Assembly: GCA_031275735.1 (NCBI GenBank)
Contig: JAISOJ010000001.1
Span: forward strand, 1-52,460
Reading direction: 5' to 3'
Length of the DNA stretch: 52,460 nt
Source of the DNA: Dysgonamonadaceae bacterium
Lineage (GTDB): Bacteria; Bacteroidota; Bacteroidia; Bacteroidales; Azobacteroidaceae
Shown here: positions 11,092 to 26,459 of the stretch, piece by piece
How the letters are laid out: every line of letters begins with the position of its first letter
How positions within the stretch are numbered: position 1 is the stretch's first letter
Made by a program: the position numbers and the translations under genes
The notes under the pieces: generated by a model
What the model saw: the letters and a program-made list of their open reading frames with translations, nothing else
What the model was told of the DNA's origin: nothing
The model's database searches: none

Positions 11092-11934
11092 ATGGTAAAT
11101 CAAAAGGAGGAGAAAGTATCGGATTTTAAGGAGAAAGAACTATGGAAGTCTTATTCCTTAGCTAAAGGATTCAGCCAAAAAATAGCTAAAGGAGGTGGTA
11201 TATCTATTGTGTTCCTAATAAAAGGAAGCGTAGAAATATCTATCAACGACGGAGAAATTCATATTATCAACTCAAGAGAGATGTTTATAACACAGGACGA
11301 TTACTCCTACACAATAAAAGCTTTGAGGCAAAGCCAAATAATGACCTGTCTTTTTCATATCGAAACTTTACTGTCCGAGCAAGCATTTATAAATGAGTTA
11401 GTTCCTTTATGCAACAAAAATAAAGAGACTTTTATTAAACTTCCTGTTAAAGAAATGATTTTTTCTTTTCTTTCTCTTTTGCAAAGATTTATGAAAGACA
11501 ATATCAACTCATATTATTTTTTTGATTTAAAAAGGCAAGAGTTACTTATTTTATTATTTGTTTATTATTCAAAAGCAGAATTGGCACAATTTTTGTATTT
11601 CATCATAAGTGAAAATATACGATTTAAAGAATTTATAATTAATAATTATCTAAACGTAAGGAATGTTCAGGAATTAGCTGCATTAGCTAACTATTCGACT
11701 TCAGGCTTTATCAAACGATTTCAGAAATGTTTTAAAGATTCTCCTTATGGATGGATGCAAAAACAACGAGCAAGGCAAATATTGAACGATATAAAACAAG
11801 GGGCAAAATCTTTACAGGAAATTGCTGTTGAATACAAATTTTCGTCATATCAACATTTTTCTAAATTTTGTAAAAAACAGTTTGGTTTTCCTCCCACAGA
11901 AATAAATAGCTATAAAAAAATGAGAGTAGAATAA
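11092..11934 (+). CDS. AraC-family transcriptional regulator
   Basis: A 280-residue protein. Residues about 1-170 look like a cupin-type sensory half (short beta strands such as GGISIVFLIKGSVEISIN). Residues about 185-275 form the AraC double helix-turn-helix: VRNVQELAALANYSTSGFIKRFQK, then LQEIAVEYKFSSYQHFSKFCKKQFG and PTEI. It faces the polysaccharide locus and ends 147 bp before its first gene, which has its own -7 box (11998-12005). That makes it the obvious candidate activator of the locus, as an inference from position only. The inverted repeats before it could be its own sites. The signal it senses cannot be read from sequence. Confidence 0.9.
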   Translation: MVNQKEEKVSDFKEKELWKSYSLAKGFSQKIAKGGGISIVFLIKGSVEISINDGEIHIINSREMFITQDDYSYTIKALRQSQIMTCLFHIETLLSEQAFINELVPLCNKNKETFIKLPVKEMIFSFLSLLQRFMKDNINSYYFFDLKRQELLILLFVYYSKAELAQFLYFIISENIRFKEFIINNYLNVRNVQELAALANYSTSGFIKRFQKCFKDSPYGWMQKQRARQILNDIKQGAKSLQEIAVEYKFSSYQHFSKFCKKQFGFPPTEINSYKKMRVE

Positions 11935-12081: not shown

Positions 12082-12363
12082 ATGTTAAAACAAACATCAT
12101 TTGCACATCAAAAACAAGTTTTGGAGCAATTTTCATCCTTGCTTTCAACTTTTGAAAACGAATTTAAAGAGTTAGTTCGCCGATTTGAAGAAGGTTTAAC
12201 TTCATTGTATGAAGAACAGGGGCTTATGGAAGAAATCTACGAAGATTACAAAAACATGTATTTGCAATCTTTGAAATCTTCCTTAGCAGAGTTATTATCG
12301 CGGATTCAAGAAGAAGACATTCCGTTCATTGAAAAAGAAATAGATTTTATTTCGTCCCGCTAA
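12082..12363 (+). CDS. Small coiled-coil protein, unknown function
   Basis: A 93-residue, highly charged, almost entirely helical protein with no signal peptide or membrane segment. Leu/Phe heptads run through it (QVLEQFSSLLSTFENEFKEL, then LLSRIQEED), so it probably forms a coiled-coil oligomer in the cytoplasm. I do not recognise the family. It is first in the unit leading into the HU/LysM-like protein (15 bp gap), the T9SS cargo and the export genes. A role with the cytoplasmic HU-like part of its neighbour is possible. Codon use and composition match the flanking genes, so it looks real. Confidence 0.7.
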   Translation: MLKQTSFAHQKQVLEQFSSLLSTFENEFKELVRRFEEGLTSLYEEQGLMEEIYEDYKNMYLQSLKSSLAELLSRIQEEDIPFIEKEIDFISSR

Positions 12364-12378
12364 TTTATTAAATAAGAA

Positions 12379-13530
12379 ATGAATAATCAGTCAGGAGTAA
12401 GTAATAGTTTCCAAAACATAAAAGATACTACAATTAACACACTGGATATCGTTATAGCGAATGCTTTACTGAAAGGCCAGGACGTAGTAATTCCCGGTTT
12501 TGGATACTTGGAATTGAAGCTTTTTCCTGATCGTCGTACCGTATTATTCAAATCGGCTAATCCGCAAGATTTACCCTCAGAATTATATCTTGAGGGTTTA
12601 GACGAAAAAGATCATTTCTTTATTTTGAAAATGTGTATCTCAAACCCACTTGAAGAAGGAAAAGTGGTTTCAATGCCCGGTTTAGGTATTTTCCGTCCTC
12701 TCAAACGAGAGGACGGGAGTTTTCATGTTTCTTTTACACCGTCTTCTTTTCTTCGTCAGCGGTTGAACGAAGAAAAAACGGAAAATAAACAAACGATAGG
12801 AAACGTAAAAATAGAACCGGAATTACCAACCGCAAAAAGCGAACAAGAATTGATAGTCGGAACAACCGAAGGACTTTCCTCGGAGAGTGAAGTAATCTGC
12901 CAGGAATCTCCAATAGTTGAAAAATCGGAAGTAAGTGAAGAAAAAAAACAGGTATTGCCGGATATAAATGCTGCGGAAGATAATACTTCCAATAAGAGTC
13001 GTAAAAAGAGATCAATTGTAACGCCTTTAGCAAATTTGAAAATACAAACAAGCGACGCTGATCAGAATGGTATTTTTCAGGTAAATAACGATAATAATAA
13101 AAGACAAGAGGGTAACGAGGATTTTTATCGAAACGAAACGCCATTTGAAATAATTAAAACAAAAAGAAAAAATATATCAGGAATTTTATTGGGAGTCGTT
13201 TGTTTGATAGCCATCATAGTTATTATTTTTACCATTTTTTTTCAAGGTAAAGAAAAAGAAAATACGGTCGCCAATCCTCAATCCGAATCATTAAATTTAG
13301 TGGATTTAGCGAGAAAAAATTATGGTAATCCGGCTTTTTGGGTATATATCTACGAAAGTAATAAGGACAAGTTGACTTCTCCTGTAAATATACCCCAAAG
13401 CGTAACTTTGACAATTCCTGATCTATCAGAATATAACATTGATATAAAAGATAGTCTTGAAATAATACGAGCTAATATACGCTCCGAAGACATTTTAGAA
13501 AAATATATAGAAAATAAAAATAATAATTAA
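12379..13530 (+). CDS. HU-like domain / single TM / LysM-like protein
   Basis: A 383-residue protein with an unusual build. Residues ~15-125 contain two HU/CCDC81-like half repeats (VVIPGFGYLELK near 36 and VVSMPGLGIFRP near 96), as in Bacteroidetes HU-CCDC81 proteins. Residues ~130-265 are a low-complexity charged linker. A single membrane helix spans about 266-288 (GILLGVVCLIAIIVIIFTIFF region). The C-terminal part (about 305-350) resembles LysM: NLVDLARKNYGNPAFWVYIY, then NIPQSVTLTIP. Predicted topology is HU part in the cytoplasm, LysM-like part in the periplasm. Whether the HU part binds DNA or has become a protein-binding module is open. It lies between the coiled-coil gene and the T9SS cargo (9 bp gap). 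Confidence 0.75.
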   Translation: MNNQSGVSNSFQNIKDTTINTLDIVIANALLKGQDVVIPGFGYLELKLFPDRRTVLFKSANPQDLPSELYLEGLDEKDHFFILKMCISNPLEEGKVVSMPGLGIFRPLKREDGSFHVSFTPSSFLRQRLNEEKTENKQTIGNVKIEPELPTAKSEQELIVGTTEGLSSESEVICQESPIVEKSEVSEEKKQVLPDINAAEDNTSNKSRKKRSIVTPLANLKIQTSDADQNGIFQVNNDNNKRQEGNEDFYRNETPFEIIKTKRKNISGILLGVVCLIAIIVIIFTIFFQGKEKENTVANPQSESLNLVDLARKNYGNPAFWVYIYESNKDKLTSPVNIPQSVTLTIPDLSEYNIDIKDSLEIIRANIRSEDILEKYIENKNNN

Positions 13531-13539
13531 CATTGTATT

Positions 13540-15189
13540 ATGAAACGATTAATTGCTCTTTTACTTTTGTTCATAGGATTTATGGTTCATTCTTTAGGAC
13601 AAACTCCATCTCCAATGACAGTTGTAGGCGATATGTACATAAAGGGTTCAATGGTTACAAAAGGCGCTGTACATGTGAAAACGGCAAATCCGGATTCACT
13701 GAGAGGCATTATTGACAATCATGGTACGCTTAAGTTAGATGCCGGCATTATTCTTTATTCCAACGACACAATTGATGGTTTATTGAGAAATGAGGGTACC
13801 GTAAATACAAATAAGGTAACTATACGTAAAACGTTTGCAAAATCCGCAGGTTATTATTACACGTTCTCTTTCCCTTTCAATGTAGGCTTAGATGGGGGAA
13901 GCATTACTAATAATACATGGGATAGCAACATAACTAAACCTAATTCCAATAATGCCGTTGCCCAATTATGGACCGATTATTATGCGGCTTATTATAGTGG
14001 TGAACGTAGGGCGAAAGTTACGGGTGATCCTAATGGTAATTGGGTGTATCTTAATGAAGACAGCTTGACATACCTGACAAAAGGAGAAGGATTCAGAATT
14101 GCGACTGTATCGGAAAATGTATTGGATTTTAATCTTACAAAATCCGTTGCGATCGACTCTTTATTTAGCTATAGCGATAAACCCAAACAGCTTATTTATT
14201 GGAACGATCCTCAGACTCGTTTTGCCGATAATACTCCCAGTGAAGGATGGAATCTTTTAGGTGGGCTTAACACTACTTCTTTTCTTTTGAAAAATACTAA
14301 CATAGCATACTCCGAATCTGAAAGCGAACCCAATTTGCTCTATTTCTGGAATAATAAAGATGCGGAGTGGGAAGAACTCTATTATGAACAAGAAGAAGCC
14401 GTTCTCTCTCCTTACGTTACTTTCTATCTTCAGACAAACAAAGACAGAAATTTTATCTTCAAAAAGGGAGGACTTATAACGCGTAAAGCAGACCCTATCG
14501 GTTTCCGTTCCGCAGAAGTTGCCACAAAAGATGTGTTGCGTTTAACAGTTTCCAAAGCAGTTAATCCTCAACTTTCAGATAGATTTTACGTAGAACTGAG
14601 AGATGATTATGATACAGAATTTAAATTAGGTGAAGATGGACTTAAAATGCTTAATGAAGGAGGTTCCAAACCGCAAATATTTTCATGGTATCAAAACGAA
14701 ACAACCTATAATCTTGCCTTAAATCGTATTCCCAGCAAAAATCAAGAAATTAAATTAGGATTGTATGTGCCGGAAGCGGGAGAATATATTTTTAGTCTAG
14801 ATAATATACAAAACAGGGTTATTGAGAAAGCTATACTAAAAGATCAAGGCACGGAAGTTGCCGACTTAATAACAGGCTCAACTTACAAGTGCTATGTAGG
14901 CGAAAATAATTTAGATCGTTTTGTTTTAGAATTTAGTACGAATATCGTACCTATCGAAGACATCGTTGTAAAAGGACAGGATATTTTTGCTTATTCAAAC
15001 AATAACATATTGACTGTTAAAAATTTACAAGAAGGCGATCAAATAAAAGTTTTAGATTTAAGTGGACGCGTTGTTGCCTCTGGGATAGCTTCCGGAGATG
15101 AATATTCTGTAGCTTTAGCTCAAAAAGGGATTTATTTAGTGAATGTCAAAAGCGATAAAATCGTTGTATTGAAGGTTCTGAATAAATAG
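13540..15189 (+). CDS. T9SS type A sorting-domain protein
   Basis: A 549-residue exported protein. Residues 1-20 form a signal peptide (MKRLIALLLLFIGFMVHSLG, then QTP). The long middle is beta-rich with no catalytic motif that I can identify; it begins with strands resembling a repeat-rich adhesin or autotransporter-like head. The last ~75 residues (from VKGQDIFAYS, through IKVLDLSGRVV and GIYLVNV, to VLKVLNK) have the immunoglobulin-like shape of the Por-secretion C-terminal domain that directs cargo through the type IX system to the surface. It lies between the HU/LysM-like gene and the small PID-CTERM-like gene, in the same unit as wza and wzc, so it may be a surface protein that holds or organises the polysaccharide. 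That role is inference. Confidence 0.82.
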   Translation: MKRLIALLLLFIGFMVHSLGQTPSPMTVVGDMYIKGSMVTKGAVHVKTANPDSLRGIIDNHGTLKLDAGIILYSNDTIDGLLRNEGTVNTNKVTIRKTFAKSAGYYYTFSFPFNVGLDGGSITNNTWDSNITKPNSNNAVAQLWTDYYAAYYSGERRAKVTGDPNGNWVYLNEDSLTYLTKGEGFRIATVSENVLDFNLTKSVAIDSLFSYSDKPKQLIYWNDPQTRFADNTPSEGWNLLGGLNTTSFLLKNTNIAYSESESEPNLLYFWNNKDAEWEELYYEQEEAVLSPYVTFYLQTNKDRNFIFKKGGLITRKADPIGFRSAEVATKDVLRLTVSKAVNPQLSDRFYVELRDDYDTEFKLGEDGLKMLNEGGSKPQIFSWYQNETTYNLALNRIPSKNQEIKLGLYVPEAGEYIFSLDNIQNRVIEKAILKDQGTEVADLITGSTYKCYVGENNLDRFVLEFSTNIVPIEDIVVKGQDIFAYSNNNILTVKNLQEGDQIKVLDLSGRVVASGIASGDEYSVALAQKGIYLVNVKSDKIVVLKVLNK

Positions 15190-15259
15190 ATTCTTGAAGT
15201 GTTAAATTTTTTAGGAGAAAAAGATTTATTTTGTTACACAATAAAAAAATATTATACAA

Positions 15260-15568
15260 ATGAAACGGCAATTAAAGTTTATATTAATAATTATATTATT
15301 CTTTTTATCAAATTCGATAAATGCCCAAGGCATTTATAACAACAATAGTAATAATTCGGGCGGTGATTCGGGATCATCTTCTCCCGGACTAAGAGGAGGC
15401 CCTCCGGGCGGCGGTCCTGATCCGAATGGACCAGGCGATCAAGGCGGTGAACCGGGAGGCAATAGCACAGGGACTCCGATAGGGGAAGGATTGTTTATTC
15501 TCACTTTTTTGACAGGAGGATATGCCCTATTAAAAAAACAAAATACAAAAAGAAAATATGAAATTTAG
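15260..15568 (+). CDS. Small Gly/Pro-rich protein with PID-CTERM-like sorting tail
   Basis: A 102-residue protein. It has a signal peptide (residues 1-22, ending NAQ), a disordered Gly/Pro/Asn/Ser segment (about 24-72), and a three-part C-terminus: PIGEGL (73-78), a short hydrophobic helix (about 78-91) and a basic end (KKQNTKRK). This order of Pro-motif, helix and basic cluster is that of Bacteroidota PID-CTERM tails (usual motif PIDGGL or PLDGGL) and is parallel to PEP-CTERM and LPXTG signals. No sortase or exosortase is present in the window. The gene overlaps wza by 11 bp, so translation is coupled to the export lipoprotein, tying it to polysaccharide export. The family match is from memory of the motif; function is unknown. 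Confidence 0.72.
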   Translation: MKRQLKFILIIILFFLSNSINAQGIYNNNSNNSGGDSGSSSPGLRGGPPGGGPDPNGPGDQGGEPGGNSTGTPIGEGLFILTFLTGGYALLKKQNTKRKYEI

Positions 15569-16370
15569 TGTGAAATTTTTTTCGTTATGTCTTTTTTTGA
15601 TCATGGTAGCATCTTGTACTTCCTATAAAAAAGTACCTTATTTTCAAATGAAAGATCAAAAAAAAGGAGAAGTAGAGATCTCTTCTTTTTACAAGGAAAG
15701 TAGTGCTCGGTTTCAGCCTGACGATATTCTGGCTATAACCGTTAATCTTCCAGGTAGCGGGCAAGCGGTCGCTTTTGATTTTAATTTACCCCTTCAACCG
15801 GTAACTACCGAAATAAGCGAAGAAGTAGTGAATACGGGTATTGGACGACAAACATACATGGTCGACAAAGAGGGAAAAATTGATTTTCCTATTATTGGTC
15901 AAATTAGAGTAATCGGCTATACTGCTAATGAATTGCAAAGGCATCTTAAAAATTTGATATATCCTAGGCTACTGAAAGAAGAACCGGTAGTGACTGTTCG
16001 TTTAATAAATTTTCGCATAATAGTTACAGGAGAAGTAAATCGTCCGGGTCAAATCTCTGTACCTAAAGATCATATTAATTTATTGGAAGCTTTAGCGTTA
16101 GCAGGTGATATGACTCTCTATGGCCGGAGAGATAATATAGAATTACACCGCGAAATGCCGGATGGATCTGTAAAAATAGTGTATCTGGATATCAGCAAGT
16201 CAGATATAATTTCATCGCCCTATTACTATCTCCATCAAAATGATGTAATTTATGTTGTGCCAAATAAAGTACGTGCTCAACTTACCGACATCAATCCTCA
16301 GCTGGGAACAGTAATGAGTATCGGTTCATTCCTAATGTCATTGATTACGTTTGCTTTGTGGCTCAAGTAA
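15558..16370 (+). CDS. Polysaccharide export outer-membrane lipoprotein (Wza/BexD type)
   Basis: A 270-residue lipoprotein: the signal ends in the lipobox VASC with Cys20, so the mature N-terminus is acylated. The Poly_export domain follows (about 45-150, DDILAITVNLPG... TYMVDKEGKIDFPIIG), then an SLBB domain (about 155-235, VTGEVNRPGQISVP). The end (from MSIGSFLMSLITFALWLK) is a single membrane helix, as in outer-membrane polysaccharide translocons that span the membrane as an alpha barrel. With Wzc, 35 bp downstream, it should make the envelope-spanning export channel for capsule or EPS. Size is that of the short Bacteroidetes homologs. Confidence 0.93.
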   Translation: MKFSVKFFSLCLFLIMVASCTSYKKVPYFQMKDQKKGEVEISSFYKESSARFQPDDILAITVNLPGSGQAVAFDFNLPLQPVTTEISEEVVNTGIGRQTYMVDKEGKIDFPIIGQIRVIGYTANELQRHLKNLIYPRLLKEEPVVTVRLINFRIIVTGEVNRPGQISVPKDHINLLEALALAGDMTLYGRRDNIELHREMPDGSVKIVYLDISKSDIISSPYYYLHQNDVIYVVPNKVRAQLTDINPQLGTVMSIGSFLMSLITFALWLK

Positions 16371-16404: not shown

Positions 16405-18816
16405 ATGGAAAGTTATAAAAATAAAAGAGAGAGCGTAAAAAATTCTAAAAAAGAAGTTGATTTTCAGTGGTTTTTTATAAGTTTTTTTATCCATTGGAAA
16501 TGGTTTTTACTTTCAATTATCTTGTTTCTTATGTGGGGATTTTTACGTTTACGCTATTCAACGCCCATATACAATGTACAGGCAAAAATTATTTTGAAAG
16601 ACAGTAGACGAGGAGGATTAAATAATAGCGAGCTTTCTGTTTTTCAAAGTATGGGTATTCTCCAAAATAATACAAGTGTAGAAAATGAGATCGAAATACT
16701 TACTTCTCGTAATTTAGCGGAAAGCGTAGTCATTGAGCAAGAGCTATTTATTCGTTACGTAGTCAAAGGCAAATTTAAAGATACAGAATTATATGGCAAC
16801 GGAAATCCCAAGTATTATTATACATCTCCGGTGAAAGTATTTGTTGACTCTTCAGTTATATCAGCCTTAGGGTCAACAATTTTGCTTAAAGTATCTACTA
16901 CGGACAACCACAATATTCTTGTGGAAGGTAATTATGGCGGTAATGTATTTTCGGGAGAATATTCTTTTCTTCCGGCAGTTGTGGCAACTCCTATCGGTGA
17001 ATTATTGCTTTTGGGCGATGAAACATCCACTTTAAGAGCAGAATATCCGGTGGAAATACAAATAATTCCGCCCCTTAGCATAGCTCAATGGTACTTAGGG
17101 ATGCTAAGTGTGAGTTTAACGGATAATAATACTTCGGTCGTTCGCTTATCACTAAACGAAACAAACAGCCAACGAGGCGGAGATTTTCTTACCAAACTAA
17201 TTAATTTGTACAACAGCGACACAATGGCAGATAAAGATAAGGCAGCCAACAGCGCCTCTCGCTTTATTGATGAACGGTTGAGCGAATTAGGCGGCGAACT
17301 GATTCATTCGGAGAAAGAGGTTCAAGCTTATAAGCAAGCAAACGACATTGCTGATATCAGTTATGAAGCTGACTTAGTCATTGGAGAGAAAAATGTATAT
17401 GAAAAGATGGAAAGGGAAATAGAGTCAAAATTAATGATGCTTTCTTTTTTGGATGATGAATTTAAAAAGAACGAAGAATCTTCCCTATTACCTATTACTT
17501 TAGGAATAATTATGGATACTCCCCCTCTTTCTACAAGTTTGGATCAGTACAATAAACTTATACAGGATAAGAAACGCATGTTGGCTTATACCGATATAGA
17601 AACTCCGATTATCAAACGGATAGATGAACGTTTATCTACTTTGAGAGAAAATATTCGTATGAATATAGAGTCTTTACGATATAGTTTGGAAGAACAAAAA
17701 AAGGATTACGCAGATTTAAGAAAAATATATAGCGAAGGAATAGAGGAGGTTCCGCGTAAAGAACGGGAACTTACCGAGATTGTCCGCCAACAGATGATTA
17801 AAGCAGATCTTTTTGTTACTTTACTTAGTAGAAAAGAAGAAATTGCCCTGACGCTAGCTGTTACTGCTCCAAGCGCTAAATTGTTGGAAAGTCCTTTGTC
17901 TTCCGGCGCTCCGATTGCTCCCCGTAAAATGAGACTCTATATGTTATGTTTATTGGGAGGTATTGTATGTCCTTTTGTTGTGATAGGTATACGGGAATTA
18001 TTTAATTATAAAATATCCAATGAAGAAGAAGTCCGTCGTTTTTCAGAAGTACCGGTTGTTGTATCGCTTCCGATGGTAAAATCGAAAGAAACATTAGTGA
18101 TTTCTTCCCATTCAACTACGGCTATTGCCGAGCGTTTCAGGCTTTTGAGAACAAATTTGCAATTCCTGCTAGGTAATCCGGATAAAAAAGTAATACTGGT
18201 TACTTCCGCTATTAGCGGGGAAGGAAAAACATTTGTATCTATTAATCTGGCTATGACCTTTTCTTTGAAATATAAAACTATTTTAGTGGGTTTGGATATT
18301 CGTCGTCCTAAAATAGGCATATACCTTGATCTACCTAAAGAAGCCGGTTTTATTTCATATTTAACAGGTAATAACACTGATATAGATAAGTTAATTAATA
18401 AAAATATAAAAGGAACAGAATTGGATGTCCTGATTGCCGGAGTTGTTCCACCGAATCCAAATGAACTTTTAATGGAAAAAACGTTGGATGATTTGTTTGT
18501 TTTGCTACGGAAAAAATATGATTACATTATTATTGATACGTCGCCAGTGGGAAGCGTATCGGATGCATTTTTAGTAAACAGAGTTTCGGATGTTTCACTT
18601 TATATTGTGCGAGGTAACTTTTCACCAAAATCATCAGTGACTTTGATAAATAATATTTATGACGAAAAGCGTTTAAATGATGTAAATATTGTATTAAATG
18701 CATTTAATAACAAAAAATCCGGTCATTATGGATACGGATATGGAGGATACGGGTATGGATATGGCTACGGATACGGAAATTATAGAAATTACGGATATGG
18801 TTACACGACAGAATAA
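16405..18816 (+). CDS. Wzc-type polysaccharide co-polymerase and BY-kinase
   Basis: An 803-residue inner-membrane protein. TM1 lies near residues 28-47, followed by the periplasmic Wzz domain with long coiled coils (about 270-470), TM2 near 510-530, and the cytoplasmic kinase. The kinase has all three nucleotide motifs: Walker A (SGEGKT), Walker A' (ILVGLDIRRP) and Walker B (YIIIDTSPVG). The last ~30 residues are almost only Tyr and Gly (GYGYGGYGYGYGYGYG-type), the autophosphorylation cluster of bacterial tyrosine kinases. Phosphorylation state of this tail governs polymer length and export. A tyrosine phosphatase gene (50952) lies in the window but far away. The Tyr tail is encoded by an imperfect hexamer repeat. 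Confidence 0.95.
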   Translation: MESYKNKRESVKNSKKEVDFQWFFISFFIHWKWFLLSIILFLMWGFLRLRYSTPIYNVQAKIILKDSRRGGLNNSELSVFQSMGILQNNTSVENEIEILTSRNLAESVVIEQELFIRYVVKGKFKDTELYGNGNPKYYYTSPVKVFVDSSVISALGSTILLKVSTTDNHNILVEGNYGGNVFSGEYSFLPAVVATPIGELLLLGDETSTLRAEYPVEIQIIPPLSIAQWYLGMLSVSLTDNNTSVVRLSLNETNSQRGGDFLTKLINLYNSDTMADKDKAANSASRFIDERLSELGGELIHSEKEVQAYKQANDIADISYEADLVIGEKNVYEKMEREIESKLMMLSFLDDEFKKNEESSLLPITLGIIMDTPPLSTSLDQYNKLIQDKKRMLAYTDIETPIIKRIDERLSTLRENIRMNIESLRYSLEEQKKDYADLRKIYSEGIEEVPRKERELTEIVRQQMIKADLFVTLLSRKEEIALTLAVTAPSAKLLESPLSSGAPIAPRKMRLYMLCLLGGIVCPFVVIGIRELFNYKISNEEEVRRFSEVPVVVSLPMVKSKETLVISSHSTTAIAERFRLLRTNLQFLLGNPDKKVILVTSAISGEGKTFVSINLAMTFSLKYKTILVGLDIRRPKIGIYLDLPKEAGFISYLTGNNTDIDKLINKNIKGTELDVLIAGVVPPNPNELLMEKTLDDLFVLLRKKYDYIIIDTSPVGSVSDAFLVNRVSDVSLYIVRGNFSPKSSVTLINNIYDEKRLNDVNIVLNAFNNKKSGHYGYGYGGYGYGYGYGYGNYRNYGYGYTTE
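18726..18803 (+). repeat. Imperfect GGATAY hexamer repeat coding the Wzc Tyr tail
   Basis: About a dozen imperfect copies of GGATAC, GGATAT, GGGTAT or GGCTAC, each coding Gly-Tyr, interrupted by short Asn/Arg units. Slipped-strand gain or loss of a unit would keep the frame and change the number of phosphorylatable tyrosines. Confidence 0.75.
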
Positions 18817-18847: not shown

Positions 18848-20251
18848 ATGAAAAAGGGGGTTGTTTTATTTTGTACAGCGTTCTTGTTCTCTGTTTTTAC
18901 TATTTTTGCACAAGAAAAAAAAGATTCAAGTAAAGAAATAGAAGAGCTTGGTAAAGGACAAAAAGCTAAATATTGGGATAATTGGTTTATTACGGCGGGA
19001 ACTAATGTTAATTTATTATGGGGAGAGCAAGATAAAGAAATTGCAAGTTTGACAAGTCGGTTAAAGTTCGGAGGAGGAAATTTTTCCATCGGGAAATGGT
19101 TTACTCCTACTTTGGGGATGCGTATTCAGGCAATATCAGCGGCTCTTAAAGGATTTAATTATATTATACCGATGGGGCGTTATGCTTTTTATTATCATCC
19201 TGCTTCTCCTCTTGCCAAATCTATAGTTCCGATAGGATTTAGCGAACCTAGCGAACTTCATGCTGAGTATATTATTCCAGATGACTATTTTACCATACAG
19301 GATACCAAAGAAATCGTAGAAAACGAGGGAAATTGGCATAATTTTAAATTAGTAAATAGCCCTAAGGGCAGGGCATTTACACAAGAAATGAGTTATTATT
19401 CAGTTACCGTCGATGCTATGACTAATTTTACATATCTTTTTCATGGCTCTTATAAAGAAGGGATGCTGTTGGATGTTATACCTTTTGTAGGCGCTGGATT
19501 TCTACATGCTAAAGAGGGCTTATCGAATCCTGCTTATACGTATGGGGTTGTGAAGGCTGGTCTTCAAGCAAGTATTAATTTGGGGAATTTAGCTATTTTT
19601 GCGGAAATACAAGGAAATATAACCTCTCACGATTTTGACGGTTACGTTGGCGATGAATTATTTGATATGGTGTTTCATGGGATGGCTGGCCTGCAATATA
19701 CATTCAATAAGCGTTTTGCAACAGTACAAACGGGAGGCGCTTCTCTGTCATTGGATGAAATTAATTATTTGAATGAAAAGATCAATAATAATCGTACGAT
19801 GATTGAAAAACATCAGAATATTTTGGATCGTCATCAGGATTTGCTTGATCGCTTGAACCAATGTTGCGAGGAAGAAGAAGGAGTTAGAACCGAAAAAGAA
19901 ATAATAACTAAAACCGAGGTTATAACTACAAAGTATTTACCCGAGTATATCCGGTTCACCTTAAATTCGGCTCAAATTCAACTCACAGAAGAAAGCAAAC
20001 TGAAAGACGCTGTTGAATTTATGAAAGCGAATCCGTCAAGTAAATTACTTTTAGTAGGATATGCTGATAAAAAAACAGGTGCAAGTAGTTACAATTATGA
20101 CTTAAGTCGCAAACGCGTTGAAGGCGTTAGTCAAGAATTAATCCGTAGAGGAGCAGATCCTAAACGTTTGATTTTAGAATGGAGAGGCGATACTGAACAA
20201 CCATATGCCCCAAATGATTGGAATCGAGTAGTGATTATGGTTGAACGATAA
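18848..20251 (+). CDS. OmpA-family outer membrane protein (beta-barrel plus OmpA_C)
   Basis: A 467-residue exported protein. The signal peptide starts MKKGVVLFCTAFLFSVFTIFAQ, which fixes the start at 18848; an open frame continues upstream into the Wzc Tyr repeats but reads only repeat-derived Met/Asp/Thr codons. The mature N-terminal part (about 45-300) is beta-rich with alternating aromatic strands and should form an outer-membrane barrel. A coiled-coil segment (about 310-345, MIEKHQNILDRHQDLLDRL) leads to a C-terminal OmpA-like peptidoglycan-binding domain (FTLNSAQIQLTEESKLKDAVEFM; GYADKKTGASSYNYDLSRKRV; final GDTEQPY...NRVVIM). Following wzc by 31 bp, it probably stabilises the export machine in the cell wall. 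Confidence 0.9.
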   Translation: MKKGVVLFCTAFLFSVFTIFAQEKKDSSKEIEELGKGQKAKYWDNWFITAGTNVNLLWGEQDKEIASLTSRLKFGGGNFSIGKWFTPTLGMRIQAISAALKGFNYIIPMGRYAFYYHPASPLAKSIVPIGFSEPSELHAEYIIPDDYFTIQDTKEIVENEGNWHNFKLVNSPKGRAFTQEMSYYSVTVDAMTNFTYLFHGSYKEGMLLDVIPFVGAGFLHAKEGLSNPAYTYGVVKAGLQASINLGNLAIFAEIQGNITSHDFDGYVGDELFDMVFHGMAGLQYTFNKRFATVQTGGASLSLDEINYLNEKINNNRTMIEKHQNILDRHQDLLDRLNQCCEEEEGVRTEKEIITKTEVITTKYLPEYIRFTLNSAQIQLTEESKLKDAVEFMKANPSSKLLLVGYADKKTGASSYNYDLSRKRVEGVSQELIRRGADPKRLILEWRGDTEQPYAPNDWNRVVIMVER

Positions 20252-20324: not shown

Positions 20325-21638
20325 ATGAAAAGGATATTATTCATTATTGTTGACTTATTAATTATTTATGGAAGTATTCTTCTGTCTTTTTATTTACTCG
20401 CTGAAATTGATATGCTGGAAGATTTTCAACAAAATTTTGAAGCATTTACAATTGTAGCTCCATTTATTGGTCTTTTTTACTTCATCTTAATGTATGTTTT
20501 CGAGCTATACAACCTTACACATAAAGAAATTGGAGAATTAGTTTATACCGTTCTACTCATATCCATATCCTTGATGATAGGTATTATGGGCGTTTGTTTT
20601 TTGGTACGGGATGTGGCGATGGCTTTTCCGCGTAGCGTTATTCTTCTGAGTACTCTTACTTATTTTGTGGTATTAACTTTATGGCGAGCGCTTCTTTGGT
20701 ATGTCAATCATAAATTACATGGAAAAAAGAAAATAATCATTATTTATAATGAAACAAATGAGTTATCGGAAACCATAAAAAGAAAATGCGCCAATTTTTA
20801 TCAAATTCTGTATGAATGTAAAGGGAAAGATCCTTTACTGTCTGCTAAGATTGAAGCATCGGACGAAGTATTTATATGTTCAGACGTAGGGCAAAAGACA
20901 CGCGAAAAAATTTTACCTATTTGCATTAATTACAAAAAAAATGTTTGTTTCGTTCCTAAATATTTTGATGTGAGTATTATGTCGTCTATTTTTTATAAAA
21001 CGGACGATATTCCTACTTTTTGCATATCCAATATGGAACTTTCTCCGGAAGAACGTTTTCTTAAACGTTTCATCGATTTATTGTTTGGCGTGATTGCCGT
21101 AATCGTAACGTTTCCTTTTGCTTTGATAACGTTTTTGTTTGTTAAATTAGATGGAGCTCCTGCCTTCTATACTCAAGAACGGCTTACTGAAGGAGGTAAA
21201 ACATTCAAAATTTTCAAATTCAGGACAATGGTTCCTAATGCGGAAAAACTTTCAGGTCCGGTTTTGGCGGAGGAAAAAGACCCTCGCATCACCAAAGTAG
21301 GAAAATTTTTGCGAATGGTGCGCTTGGACGAACTCCCGCAATTGATTAATATTTTGAAAGGAGAAATGAGTATTGTCGGCCCTCGTCCGGAACGTCCTTT
21401 TTTCACAGAGCAATTTGAACAAGAGCTTCCGGAATATCATTACAGACTTAAAGTAAAAGCCGGATTAACCGGACTAGCGCAAGTAGAGGGAAAATACAAT
21501 ACGACGGTAGAAGATAAATTGCGTTATGATTTAATCTATATCAATAATTATTCGATATGGAAAGATTTCCTTATCATGTTGCGAACAATCAAAATATTGT
21601 TCCTTAAAAGCAGCACGGAAGGAATCGATTCTAATTAA
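20325..21638 (+). CDS. Initiating sugar-phosphate transferase (PHPT, WbaP/WcaJ type)
   Basis: A 437-residue polyprenol-phosphate hexose-1-phosphate transferase. The N-terminal half has about four membrane helices (near residues 5-25, 42-65, 75-98 and 105-125). A fifth, re-entrant helix near 245-270 leads into the catalytic bacterial-transferase domain: FYTQERLTEGGKTFKIFKFRTM, KFLRMVRLDELPQL, GEMSIVGPRPERP and the final GLTGLAQVEGKY. It puts the first sugar phosphate on undecaprenyl phosphate at the inner membrane, starting the repeat unit. It sits after a terminator and first in the glycan block, so it may set overall flux. Donor sugar cannot be told. Confidence 0.95.
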   Translation: MKRILFIIVDLLIIYGSILLSFYLLAEIDMLEDFQQNFEAFTIVAPFIGLFYFILMYVFELYNLTHKEIGELVYTVLLISISLMIGIMGVCFLVRDVAMAFPRSVILLSTLTYFVVLTLWRALLWYVNHKLHGKKKIIIIYNETNELSETIKRKCANFYQILYECKGKDPLLSAKIEASDEVFICSDVGQKTREKILPICINYKKNVCFVPKYFDVSIMSSIFYKTDDIPTFCISNMELSPEERFLKRFIDLLFGVIAVIVTFPFALITFLFVKLDGAPAFYTQERLTEGGKTFKIFKFRTMVPNAEKLSGPVLAEEKDPRITKVGKFLRMVRLDELPQLINILKGEMSIVGPRPERPFFTEQFEQELPEYHYRLKVKAGLTGLAQVEGKYNTTVEDKLRYDLIYINNYSIWKDFLIMLRTIKILFLKSSTEGIDSN

Positions 21639-21646
21639 GAGTTATA

Positions 21647-22669
21647 ATGAGAGGAGCAAATGTTGAAATATCGGTAGTCATGGCTGTTTATAACGGCGAA
21701 AAGTATCTGAAAGAAGCGATTGATTCTATTCGATCCCAAACATTCGGCAACTTTGAGTTTATTATTATTAACGACGGTTCTACAGATACTACTTCCGAAA
21801 TTATTTTTAGTTATTCCGATCCACGAATTGTTTATTTAGAGAATGAAACGAATAAAGGCTTGGTTTATAGCTTAAATAGAGGCCTATCCTCCAGCAAAGG
21901 AAAGTATATCGCCCGTATGGACGCCGACGATATTGCATTGCCGCAAAGATTGCAGATCCAATTTAATTATATGGAAGCGCATCCGGAAATCGGAATTTGC
22001 GGAAGCAATGTTGAAGCTTTTTTCAACACAAAGAAAAAAAGTGTGATTATTCGATTTCCCAAAACCGATAAACTAATTAAAGTTTTTCCTTTCTTCCAAT
22101 CGCCTTTTTCTCATCCTTCTGTTATAATGAGAAAAGAAACGCTGGTTAAAAATAATTTGAGTTATACCGACAAATTCCTTCATGCGGAAGATTACGCTTT
22201 GTGGGTGGAACTGTTGAGATACACAAAGGCTTATAATATTCCGCGTGTCCTGCTGCGTTATCGTATACATGAAGCAAGCGTTACGGCAGGTACGAGGACG
22301 GATAAAAGCTTTATTAATTCGGTACTAATTCAAAATAAATATATTCAAGATAAAAACATAACTATCTCTTTTGATGATACGGTTCTTTTTTCACGTTTTA
22401 CCAATCGTCATGAAAATTACAGTTTAAATGCGGACGACCAACAAACAATCGACCGGATATTGGAAAACTTTTTTTCCCAGTTGTTTGAAAAACAAAAGAA
22501 AGATTATCCGGTAGCGATGGATTTTGTTTCTTCGGCTTGTTTTTACCGTTTTTTAAAAGGGCGGAAATATCCTCAAATGCCTTTTCTGAAAAAACTGTAT
22601 TGGAAAGGTTTGAGAGTCTTTATTAAGAAATTACCGATTTACCTGAATCGTTTTTTAACTCAATCTTGA
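21647..22669 (+). CDS. Glycosyltransferase family 2 (copy A)
   Basis: A 340-residue GT-A fold enzyme with a classic GT2 start (ISVVMAVYNGEKYLKEAIDSI), INDGSTD, and the metal-binding DADD in ARMDADDIALPQR. A predicted acceptor part follows, then a basic C-terminus (PFLKKLYWKGLRVFIKKL) that could be membrane-associated. It adds one sugar of the repeat unit in the cytoplasm. It is paralogous to the next gene along its whole length. It begins 8 bp after the PHPT stop. Donor and linkage are unknown. Confidence 0.93.
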   Translation: MRGANVEISVVMAVYNGEKYLKEAIDSIRSQTFGNFEFIIINDGSTDTTSEIIFSYSDPRIVYLENETNKGLVYSLNRGLSSSKGKYIARMDADDIALPQRLQIQFNYMEAHPEIGICGSNVEAFFNTKKKSVIIRFPKTDKLIKVFPFFQSPFSHPSVIMRKETLVKNNLSYTDKFLHAEDYALWVELLRYTKAYNIPRVLLRYRIHEASVTAGTRTDKSFINSVLIQNKYIQDKNITISFDDTVLFSRFTNRHENYSLNADDQQTIDRILENFFSQLFEKQKKDYPVAMDFVSSACFYRFLKGRKYPQMPFLKKLYWKGLRVFIKKLPIYLNRFLTQS

Positions 22670-22672
22670 TTT

Positions 22673-23686
22673 ATGAATAATCCGGTAAAAATATCTGTAA
22701 TAATGTCGGTCTATAATGGCGGAAAATACTTGAAAGAAGCGATTGATTCTATTTTGAATCAGACATTTAAGGATTTTGAGTTTTTAATTGTCAACGATGC
22801 TTCAACAGATTCTACTTCAGCCATTTTGTCGCAATATACCGATTTTCGAATCAAAATAATTGAGAACGAAACGAATAAAGGTTTGACTTATAGTTTAAAT
22901 TTAATGCTGGCTCAAAGTCGTGGCGATTACATTGCCCGAATGGATGCCGATGATATCGCATTGCCGAACCGGTTGGAAATTCAGCATCAATTTATGGAAA
23001 TGCATCCGGAAATAGGTATTTGCGGCAGTTTTGTTGAGTCTTTTATTCAAGGCACGAAGAAAAGGCAAATCGTCCGTTTCCCAAAAACAGATATAGAAAT
23101 TCGCGCTTTTGCTTTTTTTCAGTCGCCGTTTTGCCATCCTTCTACGATGTTCCGGAAAAAAATTAAAGATAAATATCACTTGCAATATTCTCCTTTATAT
23201 ATTAAGAGCGAAGATTACGCTTTATGGGTAGAATTACTGAAATATACCCAAGGGGCGACTATTCCACAGGTTTTGTTAAAGTACCGGCGGCACGAACAAT
23301 GTTTTTCCCGTTGGGAAAATGAAAAAGCGAATGGAAAGATTGAAATGATCACAGCTATTCAAAAAAACTATTTGGCTTGTTATCATATTCATTTAGATGA
23401 TAGTAATTTGTCTGTTTATACTCAATTCGTTGATCGTTCTCTCCCTTTTGAACTGAATATTCGTAATCAAAAAGCGGTAGCGCATGTCATTCGGGACTTT
23501 CTTTCTCAGCTTTCTCTCAACCAAAAGTGTTTGGAAAAAAAAGCGGTTTATAATCTTTCAATGATTTGTTTCTTCAAATTTTGGGTAAAGAAGAGATATC
23601 CTCTCCCTTTTTTATTACAAAAATTATTTTTGAAAGGAACGTTTATCTATATGAAACGTATGGCCGGAATAAAGGATTTTAATTAA
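22673..23686 (+). CDS. Glycosyltransferase family 2 (copy B, tandem paralog)
   Basis: A 337-residue GT2 enzyme beginning 3 bp after copy A. The same blocks recur in the same order: VYNGGKYLKEAIDSI, VNDASTD, ENETNKGL, ARMDADDIALPNR, HPEIGICGS, FPKTD, FFQSPF, SEDYALWVELLKYT. Divergence lies mainly in the C-terminal third, where specificity usually sits. This looks like a tandem duplication followed by specialisation, which would let two similar but distinct linkages be made. Donor and linkage are unknown. Confidence 0.93.
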   Translation: MNNPVKISVIMSVYNGGKYLKEAIDSILNQTFKDFEFLIVNDASTDSTSAILSQYTDFRIKIIENETNKGLTYSLNLMLAQSRGDYIARMDADDIALPNRLEIQHQFMEMHPEIGICGSFVESFIQGTKKRQIVRFPKTDIEIRAFAFFQSPFCHPSTMFRKKIKDKYHLQYSPLYIKSEDYALWVELLKYTQGATIPQVLLKYRRHEQCFSRWENEKANGKIEMITAIQKNYLACYHIHLDDSNLSVYTQFVDRSLPFELNIRNQKAVAHVIRDFLSQLSLNQKCLEKKAVYNLSMICFFKFWVKKRYPLPFLLQKLFLKGTFIYMKRMAGIKDFN

Positions 23687-23704
23687 AATAAAAGAATTAA
23701 GCCA

Positions 23705-24994
23705 ATGAAATTAGCATTTAAAGTCATCCTGTTATTCCTGATCGTTTTCAACTTCAGAATACCTTTGGTATATAATTCGGTATTTGTGACCGTTATTTTG
23801 TCTACCTTTTATTATTTAATTACAAAAAAATCCATTCCTTTTACCTATTTTAATTACCGTCATAATGCCGTAATTATCATAGCAACTCTTATGCTGGCGC
23901 TGGTTGTATTTACTTTTACAACTCTTCATGAACAAGATATCGCCGTAACTATCAGGCGAATATTCGTTCAGTTATCTATGCTGCTTGCTCTTATTTATAT
24001 ATTTCCTATTCTTTTGGAAGAAATTCAAGAGTCTAACGCCTTTGAGGAAGCGATGCTGATTGTATGCTATACTTTTGCTTTACAAGGGGGAATTCATTTA
24101 GCGGCTTATTTTATTCCGGCTTTAGGCGATTTTATGATATCCATAAAGCCGGAGGGTTTTCAAGAAGGTATGGCGGAGCGAAATATTAACCGTTTCAGAG
24201 GATTTGCCCTTTCCGGCTCTGTCTATTTTGAGCTTCCATCGGCTTACGGCGTTGCTTTTATTTTGTATATAAGATTACAATTGATTGAAGGTCAGAAATA
24301 TTTGACCGGATATAAGAACTATATTGTTCTTTTATTAATCGTATCGGGTATTATGTTAACAGGAAGGGTTGGATTTGTCGGAATAGGAATCGGTATGCTA
24401 TTGTATTTCCTTTTTGTAAAAGATCCGATCGTCATTGTGGGACGAATCTTTAAAAATGCCATTGCTTTTTCTCCTTTTATAATAATAGGCTGGTTCATTC
24501 TTCTTTCTCCCAGTCAACGTACATCCATTGAAAATGAAATTTTTCCTTTTGCACTCGAATTTTATTATAGATTCAGGGATACCGGTGAAATCGGAACCTC
24601 CTCCTCCGACGCAACATTCAAAGCTTTTTATTTTCCTTTAAAAGATGAAACCTTATTGTGGGGACATGGAACAGACGATGTTTATAAATTACTTGACCAA
24701 TATAACTTTACCGATGCAGGCTATATGCGAACATTGATGTTTGGCGGAATTCCTTATTTTATCTGTTTATTCATTTATCAATTTCTTTATTTCTCTATGC
24801 CGATAAAGGCGGCTTCGTGGCTTCGGGAGAAAGAAAGCAAGAAAGACTTGTATTGTTTCCTATTTTTGTTTGGCTATATTTTAACGCTTCATATCAAAGA
24901 TACGGCTTTAGCTCTTCAGCATCTGACGGAGGTACTTTTCCTTTATATCGGTTTTTCTTACCTTATTAAGTATTACGCAAAGTCAGAAAAATAA
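23705..24994 (+). CDS. Wzy-like O-antigen/capsule polymerase (multi-TM)
   Basis: A 429-residue polytopic membrane protein with about 11 hydrophobic helices and no soluble enzyme domain. Features fit O-antigen polymerases and ligases: the loop RFRGFALSGSVYFELPSAYG, the TM motif LTGRVGFVGIG, and a large periplasmic loop before WGHGTDDVYK ... DAGYMRTLMFGG. Wzy joins lipid-linked repeat units on the periplasmic side. Position between glycosyltransferase and acyltransferase genes supports this. Wzy proteins are poorly conserved, so the call is by topology and context. No Wzx flippase is seen nearby. Confidence 0.75.
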   Translation: MKLAFKVILLFLIVFNFRIPLVYNSVFVTVILSTFYYLITKKSIPFTYFNYRHNAVIIIATLMLALVVFTFTTLHEQDIAVTIRRIFVQLSMLLALIYIFPILLEEIQESNAFEEAMLIVCYTFALQGGIHLAAYFIPALGDFMISIKPEGFQEGMAERNINRFRGFALSGSVYFELPSAYGVAFILYIRLQLIEGQKYLTGYKNYIVLLLIVSGIMLTGRVGFVGIGIGMLLYFLFVKDPIVIVGRIFKNAIAFSPFIIIGWFILLSPSQRTSIENEIFPFALEFYYRFRDTGEIGTSSSDATFKAFYFPLKDETLLWGHGTDDVYKLLDQYNFTDAGYMRTLMFGGIPYFICLFIYQFLYFSMPIKAASWLREKESKKDLYCFLFLFGYILTLHIKDTALALQHLTEVLFLYIGFSYLIKYYAKSEK

Positions 24995-25011
24995 TACTCG
25001 GAAAGGTTTCT

Positions 25012-26448
25012 ATGCTATTTAATTCATTTATATATTTATTATTTTTCCCCATAGTTTGCCTCCTGTACTGGTTATTTCCAAAGCAATACCGCAATGCGCT
25101 TTTGTTGCTTGCAAGCTATTATTTTTACATGAACTGGAATCCCTTATACGGACTGCTGATTTTATTTTCAACCATCGTAACCTGGCTTTGCGCCTTATTT
25201 TTGAATCAAAAAGAAAAGAGGGAAAAAAAGAAAATCATTCTATTTTGCGCTTTAATACTTAATCTGGGAATTTTAGTTCTATTCAAATACGCTGATTTTA
25301 TAACGCTTAATATCAACGATCTATTTCAAACGTTCCATATTAAATGGGAAGTTCCTTTTTTGGACTTATTATTACCGGTAGGGATTTCATTTTACACTTT
25401 CCAGGCGATAGGCTATACTATCGACGTGTATAAAGGAACTATTTCCGCCGAAAAAAATTTTATTACATATGCTCTGTTTATCTCTTTTTTCCCACAGTTA
25501 GTAGCAGGGCCTATCGAAAGAGCTAAAAATTTATTACCGCAGTTTCATCGCACACATCATTTCGACACAGCCAATTTCGTACAAGGCGCGAGATTGATCC
25601 TTTGGGGCTATTTTATGAAAATAGTTGTTTCCGATCGATTGGCCATATACGTAAATTTTGCATATGGCAACATTTCTTACCATAATACTATTACCTTGAT
25701 TGTCGCCACGATTTTTTTTGCTTTTCAAATTTATTGTGATTTCGGCGGGTATTCCAACATAGCTATCGGTTGCGCCAAAATTATGGGGTTTGATTTAATG
25801 GCTAATTTCAAAAGGCCTTACCTATCGACTTCCGCGATTGAATTTTGGCGAAGATGGCACATCTCTTTGTCCACCTGGTTCAGGGATTATGTATATATTC
25901 CGCTAGGCGGAAATCGTTGCAGTAAGGGGCGAAATTACTTGAATATATTTATTACTTTCACGATAAGCGGTTTATGGCATGGCGCGAACTGGACATTTAT
26001 TGTATGGGGCGCCTTGAATGGTATTTTTCAGATTATCGAAAAATTTACCGCCGGTTTTCGAAAAAAATGGGCGGATTTTTTTTGTTTATCCAAAATTCCG
26101 ATTGTTGTCTACGGCTTTAATGTGTTATTCACATTTACCATTATTACGATTACATGGGTGTTTTTCAGGGCAGGAAGTATGAATATCGCTCTGCAAATAT
26201 TTGATAAGCTATTGAATGTCCATAGAGGGCCTTTGTTCACGCTTCCTCTTCAAGCTTTATTGTATGGTTCTTGTTTTACACTCGTCCTGATTGTTTCCGA
26301 CTTCCTTCAAGAAAGGAATGGAGATAAGCATTTTTTTCTTGAAAACAAATCGGCTTTAGTCAGATATGTTACTTATTTGTCGCTCGTGATAATCATTCTG
26401 TTATTCGGCGTTTTTGACAGTTCGCGGTTTATTTATTTTCAATTTTAA
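25012..26448 (+). CDS. MBOAT-family O-acyltransferase (AlgI/DltB-like)
   Basis: A 478-residue polytopic membrane protein of the MBOAT family. It has an N-terminal multi-TM part, the motif WRRWHISLSTWFRDYVYIP (first conserved His), and the catalytic His in SGLWHGANWTF. Members such as AlgI move acetyl groups across the membrane for O-acetylation of polysaccharides; DltB acts on D-alanine. Here the partner is the SGNH-like protein 11 bp downstream. The pair therefore probably O-acetylates the polymer, with acetyl donor in the cytoplasm. The acyl group is inferred from family and context. Confidence 0.93.
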   Translation: MLFNSFIYLLFFPIVCLLYWLFPKQYRNALLLLASYYFYMNWNPLYGLLILFSTIVTWLCALFLNQKEKREKKKIILFCALILNLGILVLFKYADFITLNINDLFQTFHIKWEVPFLDLLLPVGISFYTFQAIGYTIDVYKGTISAEKNFITYALFISFFPQLVAGPIERAKNLLPQFHRTHHFDTANFVQGARLILWGYFMKIVVSDRLAIYVNFAYGNISYHNTITLIVATIFFAFQIYCDFGGYSNIAIGCAKIMGFDLMANFKRPYLSTSAIEFWRRWHISLSTWFRDYVYIPLGGNRCSKGRNYLNIFITFTISGLWHGANWTFIVWGALNGIFQIIEKFTAGFRKKWADFFCLSKIPIVVYGFNVLFTFTIITITWVFFRAGSMNIALQIFDKLLNVHRGPLFTLPLQALLYGSCFTLVLIVSDFLQERNGDKHFFLENKSALVRYVTYLSLVIIILLFGVFDSSRFIYFQF

Positions 26449-26459
26449 AATTCTTGTAA

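Follow-up and report, generated by a model that had tools for sequence, protein, structure and literature searches.

Four genes stand directly in front of wza in an exopolysaccharide (EPS) locus of Dysgonamonadaceae bacterium, and what they do there, and whether they belong together, is the question addressed here. The locus lies in a stretch of 52,460 nucleotides (assembly GCA_031275735.1, contig JAISOJ010000001.1, positions 1 to 52,460 of the forward strand), the whole of which is called the window, and the genome is a 2.43-Mb assembly with 75.9% completeness. The four genes encode a charged coiled-coil (CC) protein of 93 residues, a protein with HU-like and LysM-like ends joined by a transmembrane (TM) segment, a cargo of the type IX secretion system (T9SS) and a small protein with a PID-CTERM-like tail. 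In the first-pass annotation of this DNA it was suggested that they could be one envelope-assembly unit coupling surface-protein sorting to polysaccharide export. Our study has pointed instead to two pairs of genes. The last two are, with a probability of about 0.6, an EPS-linked copy of a widespread Bacteroidota cassette consisting of a T9SS type A cargo and a tiny PID-CTERM-like exosortase substrate, with an XrtX-like exosortase encoded elsewhere in the genome. The evidence comes from gene order, tail similarity, pairing with cargo genes, co-occurrence and occasional linkage with an exosortase, and the invariant Cys, Arg and His of that enzyme. In the best reading, the window system is an EPS-linked variant of exosortase/PID-CTERM sorting in which the substrate is a partner dedicated to a T9SS cargo.

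The 102-residue PID-like protein carries a signal peptide and a linker rich in Gly, Ser, Pro, Thr and Asp, after which the tail TPIGEGLFILTFLTGGYALLKKQ follows. The tail columns were found to be much more conserved than those of the linker (mean entropy 0.98 vs 2.12 bits). An alignment of the window-type tail with PID-CTERM proteins by hhalign gave a probability of 97.3% and an E-value of 1.8e-11 over the 31-residue tail, whereas the window protein had no match in NCBIfam, NF046080 (cut-off 26 bits) included; weak matches to NF046080 were seen in 3 of 27 diverse PID-like relatives (best E 0.0015). The earlier label of a PID-CTERM-like protein is thus supported by the tail alignment and not by the curated cut-off. 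Both PID-CTERM and XrtX are already known as curated models, and the proteins studied here align with them yet score below both cut-offs. PID-CTERM (NF046080) proteins are likewise small and secreted, with a P-I-[DG]-x-G tail, a hydrophobic stretch and a Lys/Arg end, whereas the window protein has a longer Gly/Pro linker. Among 18 proteins aligned from the phylum sample, 15 have the motif starting 24-41 residues from the chosen start, so that little beyond the sorting tail would be left after the signal peptide. At an E-value of 0.01, matches to the PID-like profile (built from 27 proteins) were obtained in 62 of the 198 Bacteroidales genomes searched, and matches to the curated PID-CTERM model in 33 of 148 genomes from the whole phylum; within the genus up to 12 matches per genome were recorded at E 1. 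A restriction of the PID tail to EPS loci was considered and rejected, as most copies examined sit behind T9SS-type cargo elsewhere.

The third gene was confirmed as a T9SS cargo by its C-terminal domain (CTD), which scored 24.3 bits with TIGR04183 (cut-off 23) and 21.5 bits with PF18962, below the cut-off of 27. Moreover, the C-terminal half of the cargo family profile matched the T9SS cargo RemZ (8gl8_D, E 3.4e-11), and the window genome encodes PorU (NF033707) and has 78 T9SS CTD matches. In 20 PID regions of the genus, which form part of the match list and were chosen before their neighbours were known, the PID gene usually followed closely on one for a large secreted protein, whose C-terminus, as judged by eye, was often of the T9SS type. 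The upstream gene was then scored at one locus per genome, with 30 loci from each of the order and phylum samples (60 in total) chosen regardless of neighbours; the gene scored was the longest same-strand open reading frame (ORF) of at least 100 residues ending no more than 800 bp before the tail, which is not always the nearest gene. Five loci with less than 300 bp of upstream sequence (L135, L136, L137, L157 and L166) were dropped. Such an ORF was present in 51 of the 55 informative loci and matched TIGR04183 in 44 of the 51 (44/55 loci), and Pfam Por_Secre_tail was matched by 39 of the upstream genes. Seven upstream genes had no TIGR04183 match and four loci (L154, L180, L183 and L186) had no qualifying ORF, L183 being a PID gene followed by an exosortase gene. 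The background frequency of T9SS CTDs was roughly 3.3% of genes in 29 PID-positive genomes, or 5.2% with all first-look candidates; the lower figure covers 29 of the 30 order-sample locus genomes (G176 not included), with at most ~137 candidates scored per genome and 0.85 genes per kb assumed. The T9SS and PID signals, earlier described as separate sorting signals, do not neighbour each other independently here: the PID tail accompanies T9SS cargo phylum-wide. None of the 62 PID-positive genomes was among the 16 without PorU (p 0.003), but this test is weak, PorU being present in the majority of genomes. In the open-licence PMC literature no paper was found describing a PID-CTERM partner of a T9SS cargo, nor a pairing of PID-CTERM with wza-wzc.

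In the window genome five nearly identical PID-like tails were observed, on contigs C70, C31 (near the end), C64 (start), C66 (end) and C9 (start), with a cargo gene upstream where this is visible (C70, C31). As four of the five tails lie at or near contig ends, this repeated tail family has probably broken the assembly. On the window contig the only match of the PID-like profile is at 15260-15565.

An exosortase-like partner for the PID-type tail, which had been suggested as a search target at the outset, was found in most PID-positive genomes. PF09721 was matched in 68 of the 198 Bacteroidales genomes, namely in 44 of the 62 PID-positive and 24 of the 136 PID-negative ones (odds ratio 11.4, p 8e-13). 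Expressed as genomes with both, with PID only, with exosortase only and with neither, the counts are 44/18/24/112 in the order sample, 36/13/14/57 after collapsing to 120 families (p 6e-9), 26/7/23/92 in the phylum sample (p 9e-10), where 7 of the 33 PID-positive genomes have no PF09721 match, and 21/4/3/6 within the genus (p 0.009). A more sensitive profile of 19 exosortase sequences gave 50/12/32/104 in the order sample, or 31/12/32/104 without the 19 training genomes, and these counts are secondary to those of PF09721 because the training sequences came from PID-positive genomes; PF09721 misses exosortases in G038, G053 and G419. With the 19-sequence profile (E 0.001), 24 of 34 genus genomes have an exosortase, including 14/14 of those with PID beside wza vs 10/20 of the others (p 0.0017), several of the genomes compared being incomplete metagenome-assembled ones. 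Further, the order cargo, PID, exosortase forms an operon in G122, G108, G085 and G164 (L190-L193), where the cargo of G164 was called by its C-terminus and the others by profile. The same type of operon is present in G211 (L194), its PID tail being placed from the tail-match coordinates 50 bp before the exosortase gene, and in G407, G446 and G489 the match coordinates place tail and exosortase as same-strand neighbours.

The exosortase of the window genome is a 219-residue protein encoded on a separate contig (G000:C64:50398-51048) and is the only match of the 19-sequence profile in this genome. It scored 61.5 bits with TIGR04178 (cut-off 23), 21.2 bits with PF09721, which is below the cut-off of 25.7, and 79.8 bits with XrtX NF046081, its highest-scoring named match, which is below the cut-off of 170; NF046081 was matched by 18 of the 19 members of the exosortase alignment. 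The alignment of 19 exosortases shows Cys, Lys, Asn, Arg and His conserved throughout, and C116, R157 and H179 are invariant. The conserved Cys and Arg and the third residue are presumably the catalytic residues of exosortases. A PDB search with the exosortase gave no match. The adjacent accessions suggest that the curators paired PID-CTERM (NF046080) with exosortase X (NF046081). Among the loci listed (L209-L237, L188 and L241), an Xaa-Pro-aminopeptidase-like gene comes after the XrtX-like one, with abutting or overlapping frames, in 21 of 23 genus loci and in 0 of 7 others, the name of the second gene being judged from the sequence alone and without a family search. The smallest nearly complete genus genomes, G003 and G021 (1.0-1.2 Mb), gave no HU/LysM, PID or exosortase match, and PorU is absent from G003, the one of the two that was tested for it; these losses would fit endosymbiont reduction.

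The occurrence of the sorting tail beside EPS export genes is not peculiar to the genus and recurs in three other lineages, two of them with an exosortase. In G164 wza-wzc are divergent from the cargo, PID and exosortase genes. In G419 a PID gene followed by an exosortase gene is divergent from wzc, the tail being placed from match coordinates just upstream of the exosortase since it is not in the ORF table. In G465 the order is a flippase-like gene (by eye), PID, wza and wzc. The exosortase is within or beside the EPS locus in G164 and G419 and not in the window. Surface-protein sorting and polysaccharide export look linked, because the cargo and PID pair is phylum-wide and goes with a sorting enzyme.

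Several observations weigh against the cassette with an exosortase substrate. The PID protein of the window and the exosortase of its genome are below curated NCBIfam cut-offs, and some of the weak PID matches span just that part of the model which covers the signal peptide. There are far more T9SS cargos than PID genes, and the 1197-residue cargo at 30632-34225 in the window has no PID match behind it. In the order sample 18 of 62 PID-positive genomes are without a PF09721 match (12 with the more sensitive 19-sequence profile), 24 exosortase-positive genomes are without a PID match, and PID-exosortase linkage within 1 kb was found in at least 6 of 44 double-positive genomes. EPS genes were found beside PID in only 3 of 58 out-of-genus loci, most of them screened for wza/wzc over 1.5 kb on each side; the EPS linkage is therefore recurrent but not general.

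The PID-like protein may alternatively be an unprocessed single-pass helper of the inner membrane, such as a tether or chaperone by which the cargo is presented to the motor or translocon of the T9SS, its link with exosortases being indirect and due to a shared lifestyle. The PID-positive genomes missing PF09721 and the short N-terminal part, which would leave little to sort after the signal peptide, would both agree with such a role, and the link with the exosortase is no stronger than the pairing with T9SS cargo. On the other hand, the three parts typical of exosortase tails are all present, and in several genomes the exosortase gene is the immediate neighbour, which a lifestyle correlation alone does not predict. 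We consider this helper role unlikely.

If the last two genes are an EPS-linked cargo and exosortase-substrate cassette, the following course of events can be speculated. Sec would export both the cargo and the small PID protein, and the tail would keep the latter in the inner membrane. The exosortase may then cut at the PIGEG-type motif and pass the Gly/Pro-rich part on to an acceptor, which is probably a glycan linked to a lipid or a polymer. The cargo would cross the outer membrane via SprA/PorV and be cut by PorU. Cargo and PID product might come together on the cell surface or within the polysaccharide coat that the adjacent Wza-Wzc exports, and both would help to form a surface coat. More broadly, a split two-signal sorting can be imagined, in which many T9SS type A cargos each have their own exosortase substrate. 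Linked to a glycan or lipid acceptor, the product of this substrate would anchor or place the cargo on the envelope or within the polysaccharide that is exported, so that T9SS, exosortase and Wza-Wzc would form one coupled route of surface assembly in Bacteroidota. We offer this wider scheme tentatively; if true, the substrate would in some lineages be almost nothing but a sorting signal.

The placement of the pair with Wza-Wzc may be a parallel to the PEP-CTERM/EpsH systems. As far as the available part of Haft 2006 (PMC1569441) describes them, those systems share with the window an exosortase-type tail, an EPS locus and wza/wzc neighbours, whereas the window tail has the motif PIGEG and no PEP motif, its substrate would be the tiny partner of a T9SS cargo, and the exosortase is encoded outside the EPS locus on another contig (C64). 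A cargo-specific partner encoded directly downstream also recalls the T9SS type B cargos, for which the accessible portion of PMC12618676 gives a cognate PorP/SprF gene in that position, type A cargos being assigned there to PorV. The window cargo differs from these in being of type A, and its partner is a tail-anchored mini-protein with no likeness to a PorP/SprF shuttle. A type B cargo with PorP/SprF was rejected for the window, as no TIGR04131 or PorP/SprF match was found among the module genes. Another Bacteroidota exosortase, XrtF of Flavobacterium johnsoniae, belongs to a different subfamily from the XrtX-like enzyme here. According to the sections of PMC10936215 available to us, XrtF, T9SS genes and a LysM protein are needed for surface colonisation and biofilm in that species, and the exosortase substrates were left to future work. 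A tail family tied to both T9SS cargo and exosortase provides concrete candidate substrates for Bacteroidota exosortases and three-gene operons suited to deletion, and it makes a connection of T9SS and exosortase with polysaccharide export testable.

The four genes are all on the + strand, with gaps of 15, 9 and 70 bp followed by an 11-bp overlap of the PID gene with wza, so that the close co-directional layout first described is correct. None of the four has a sugar-enzyme match over cut-off in the NCBIfam and Pfam profile searches, in agreement with the first view of them. A scan of public genomes with the 93-residue protein gave 19 loci, of which nine are from Dysgonamonadaceae, four from Candidatus Symbiothrix, two from Candidatus Azobacteroides and four from genomes named Bacteroidia bacterium. 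With the window the total is 20, and 17 are informative, the contigs of L059, L060 and L077 ending too early. The HU/LysM gene is next after the CC gene in 20/20 loci (in L077 the first gene was matched in part). The recurrent order is AraC, coiled coil, HU/TM/LysM-like, T9SS cargo, PID-like, wza, wzc, ompA. The wza gene is reached in 13 of the 17 informative loci, and in 12 of these 13 the cargo and PID genes lie between in that order, which bears out the expected conservation of all four genes beside wza-wzc. The PID gene of L065, missing from the locus table because its frame overlaps that of wza, was counted through the other record of the same contig (L039). An AraC orthologue precedes the CC gene in the window and in 12 of the 19 other loci (L059-L077), and the PID and wza frames overlap in 9 of 10 relatives examined and in the window. 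Protein identity across relatives with the same order is 27-81%; the 93-residue protein is the most conserved part, with 49-81% identity over 93 residues in the other 18 aligned sequences, and wza has 43-56%. In an even draw of 344 genomes over the order, which held few members of the genus, the 93-residue protein was found in four, two of them belonging to the genus. The relatives carrying this gene order probably originate from termite guts; the title of a reference cited in PMC2717939 gives Candidatus Symbiothrix dinenymphae as an ectosymbiont living on protists of the termite gut. In such ectosymbionts the surface coat could also be an attachment layer. In three loci (L061 13080-13853, L067 8297-9136 and L072 13854-14648) an extra secreted protein of ~260-280 residues was observed between the cargo and PID genes; a T9SS C-terminus was not seen in these proteins by eye, and no family search was made.

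The presence of all four genes in order at 12 of 13 wza-linked CC loci, with the AraC gene kept upstream, is what a single envelope-assembly unit coupling sorting to export would show. Such a single module is nevertheless rejected, because each pair is found without the other, and each also without wza. In L062 wza is present, and cargo and PID are both missing between the CC pair and wza. In L073-L076 (4/17 informative loci) the CC and HU/LysM pair occurs without wza, the next gene in L073 and L074 being Wzz/Wzc-like (Pfam Wzz below cut-off for L073), and no EPS genes being present in the available sequence of L075 and L076. In G165 (L054, 960-11456) the pair follows a cluster of TerY-C/VWA, PP2C, kinase and PRTase genes, again without wza. 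Conversely, in L110 and L113 cargo and PID are beside wza without the first pair, and most of the copies examined have no wza/wzc close by. Hence, the unit proposed in the first-pass annotation is judged quite improbable. Operon hitch-hiking, in which co-regulated surface-coat genes of unrelated functions would owe their position to the AraC gene and to the EPS promoter, is very improbable. The pairs can be separated and, of the PID pairs examined, most lie outside EPS loci, but the spacing is tight, the PID and wza frames overlap in the window and nearly all relatives examined, and PID beside wza/wzc recurs in other lineages.

The first two genes form a separate pair, encoding a probably helical, cytosolic protein and one with the layout HU-TM-LysM. 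The 93-residue protein has no hydrophobic segment and no family over cut-off in NCBIfam and Pfam, and a PDB search with it gave matches at chance level and nothing else. The HU/LysM-like protein has a single hydrophobic segment (residues ~263-293), which agrees with the TM part of its label. The HU part is below cut-off in the window protein (PF00216, 19.8 vs 22.4 bits, E 0.00096), but of the 16 aligned members 13 matched PF00216 at an E-value of 0.1, the window protein among them (best 1.9e-6). The LysM part is weak (NF008399, E 0.0096), and no Pfam LysM match was found in the window protein or among the 16 Pfam families matched by aligned members. From the order of its domains it may be guessed that this protein ties its cytosolic partner to peptidoglycan under the export site. 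The HU-HIG and HU-CCDC81 families of Pfam likewise have HU-like domains ahead of a TM segment; the matches to them are below cut-off here, and the protein is here partnered by the conserved 93-residue protein before an EPS operon. In other Bacteroidales, relatives of the HU/LysM gene have an adjoining small HU-like ORF (L054 by Pfam, L056 and L058 by eye). Three tandem distant relatives of the 93-residue protein were seen by eye before a VWA-like gene in G295 (L055, 2047-3916), and the distant relatives in G165 and G295 suggest a tie to Ter-type signalling.

Features of the four-gene set and of the neighbouring EPS locus in the window
Feature	Position	Strand	Evidence or remark
AraC-type regulator	11092..11934	+	PF12833 E 4.5e-14; 147 bp ahead of the four-gene set
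Coiled-coil (CC) gene, 93 aa, charged, probably helical, cytosolic	12082..12363	+	
HU-like N-terminus, one TM segment, LysM-like C-terminus, 383 aa	12379..13530	+	
T9SS type A cargo, 549 aa, signal peptide to C-terminal domain	13540..15189	+	TIGR04183 over cut-off
T9SS C-terminal sorting domain, residues 487-543	14998..15168	+	Profile match within the cargo gene
PID-CTERM-like protein, 102 aa: signal peptide, Gly/Ser/Pro/Thr/Asp-rich linker, tail TPIGEGLFILTFLTGGYALLKK	15260..15568	+	
Exosortase-type tail (motif, hydrophobic stretch, basic end)	15476..15565	+	Profile-profile match to PID-CTERM tails, E 1.8e-11
wza (Poly_export + SLBB)	15558..16370	+	PF02563 E 2.8e-13
wzc (Wzz + tyrosine autokinase)	16405..18816	+	TIGR01007 over cut-off
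OmpA-domain protein	18848..20251	+	PF00691 E 8.9e-11
EPS genes: sugar-phosphate transferase, four glycosyltransferases, MBOAT acyltransferase	20325..29593	+	

In the neighbouring genes, the ORF of the OmpA-domain protein opens at 18698, and the start at ~18848 was chosen by eye from the signal peptide. Within the EPS block, the stretch 23705-24994 had no Pfam match and 26460-27380 matched DUF1574 alone, below the Pfam cut-off. The second cargo of the window, at 30632-34225, has PKD repeats and scored 37.2 bits with PF18962.

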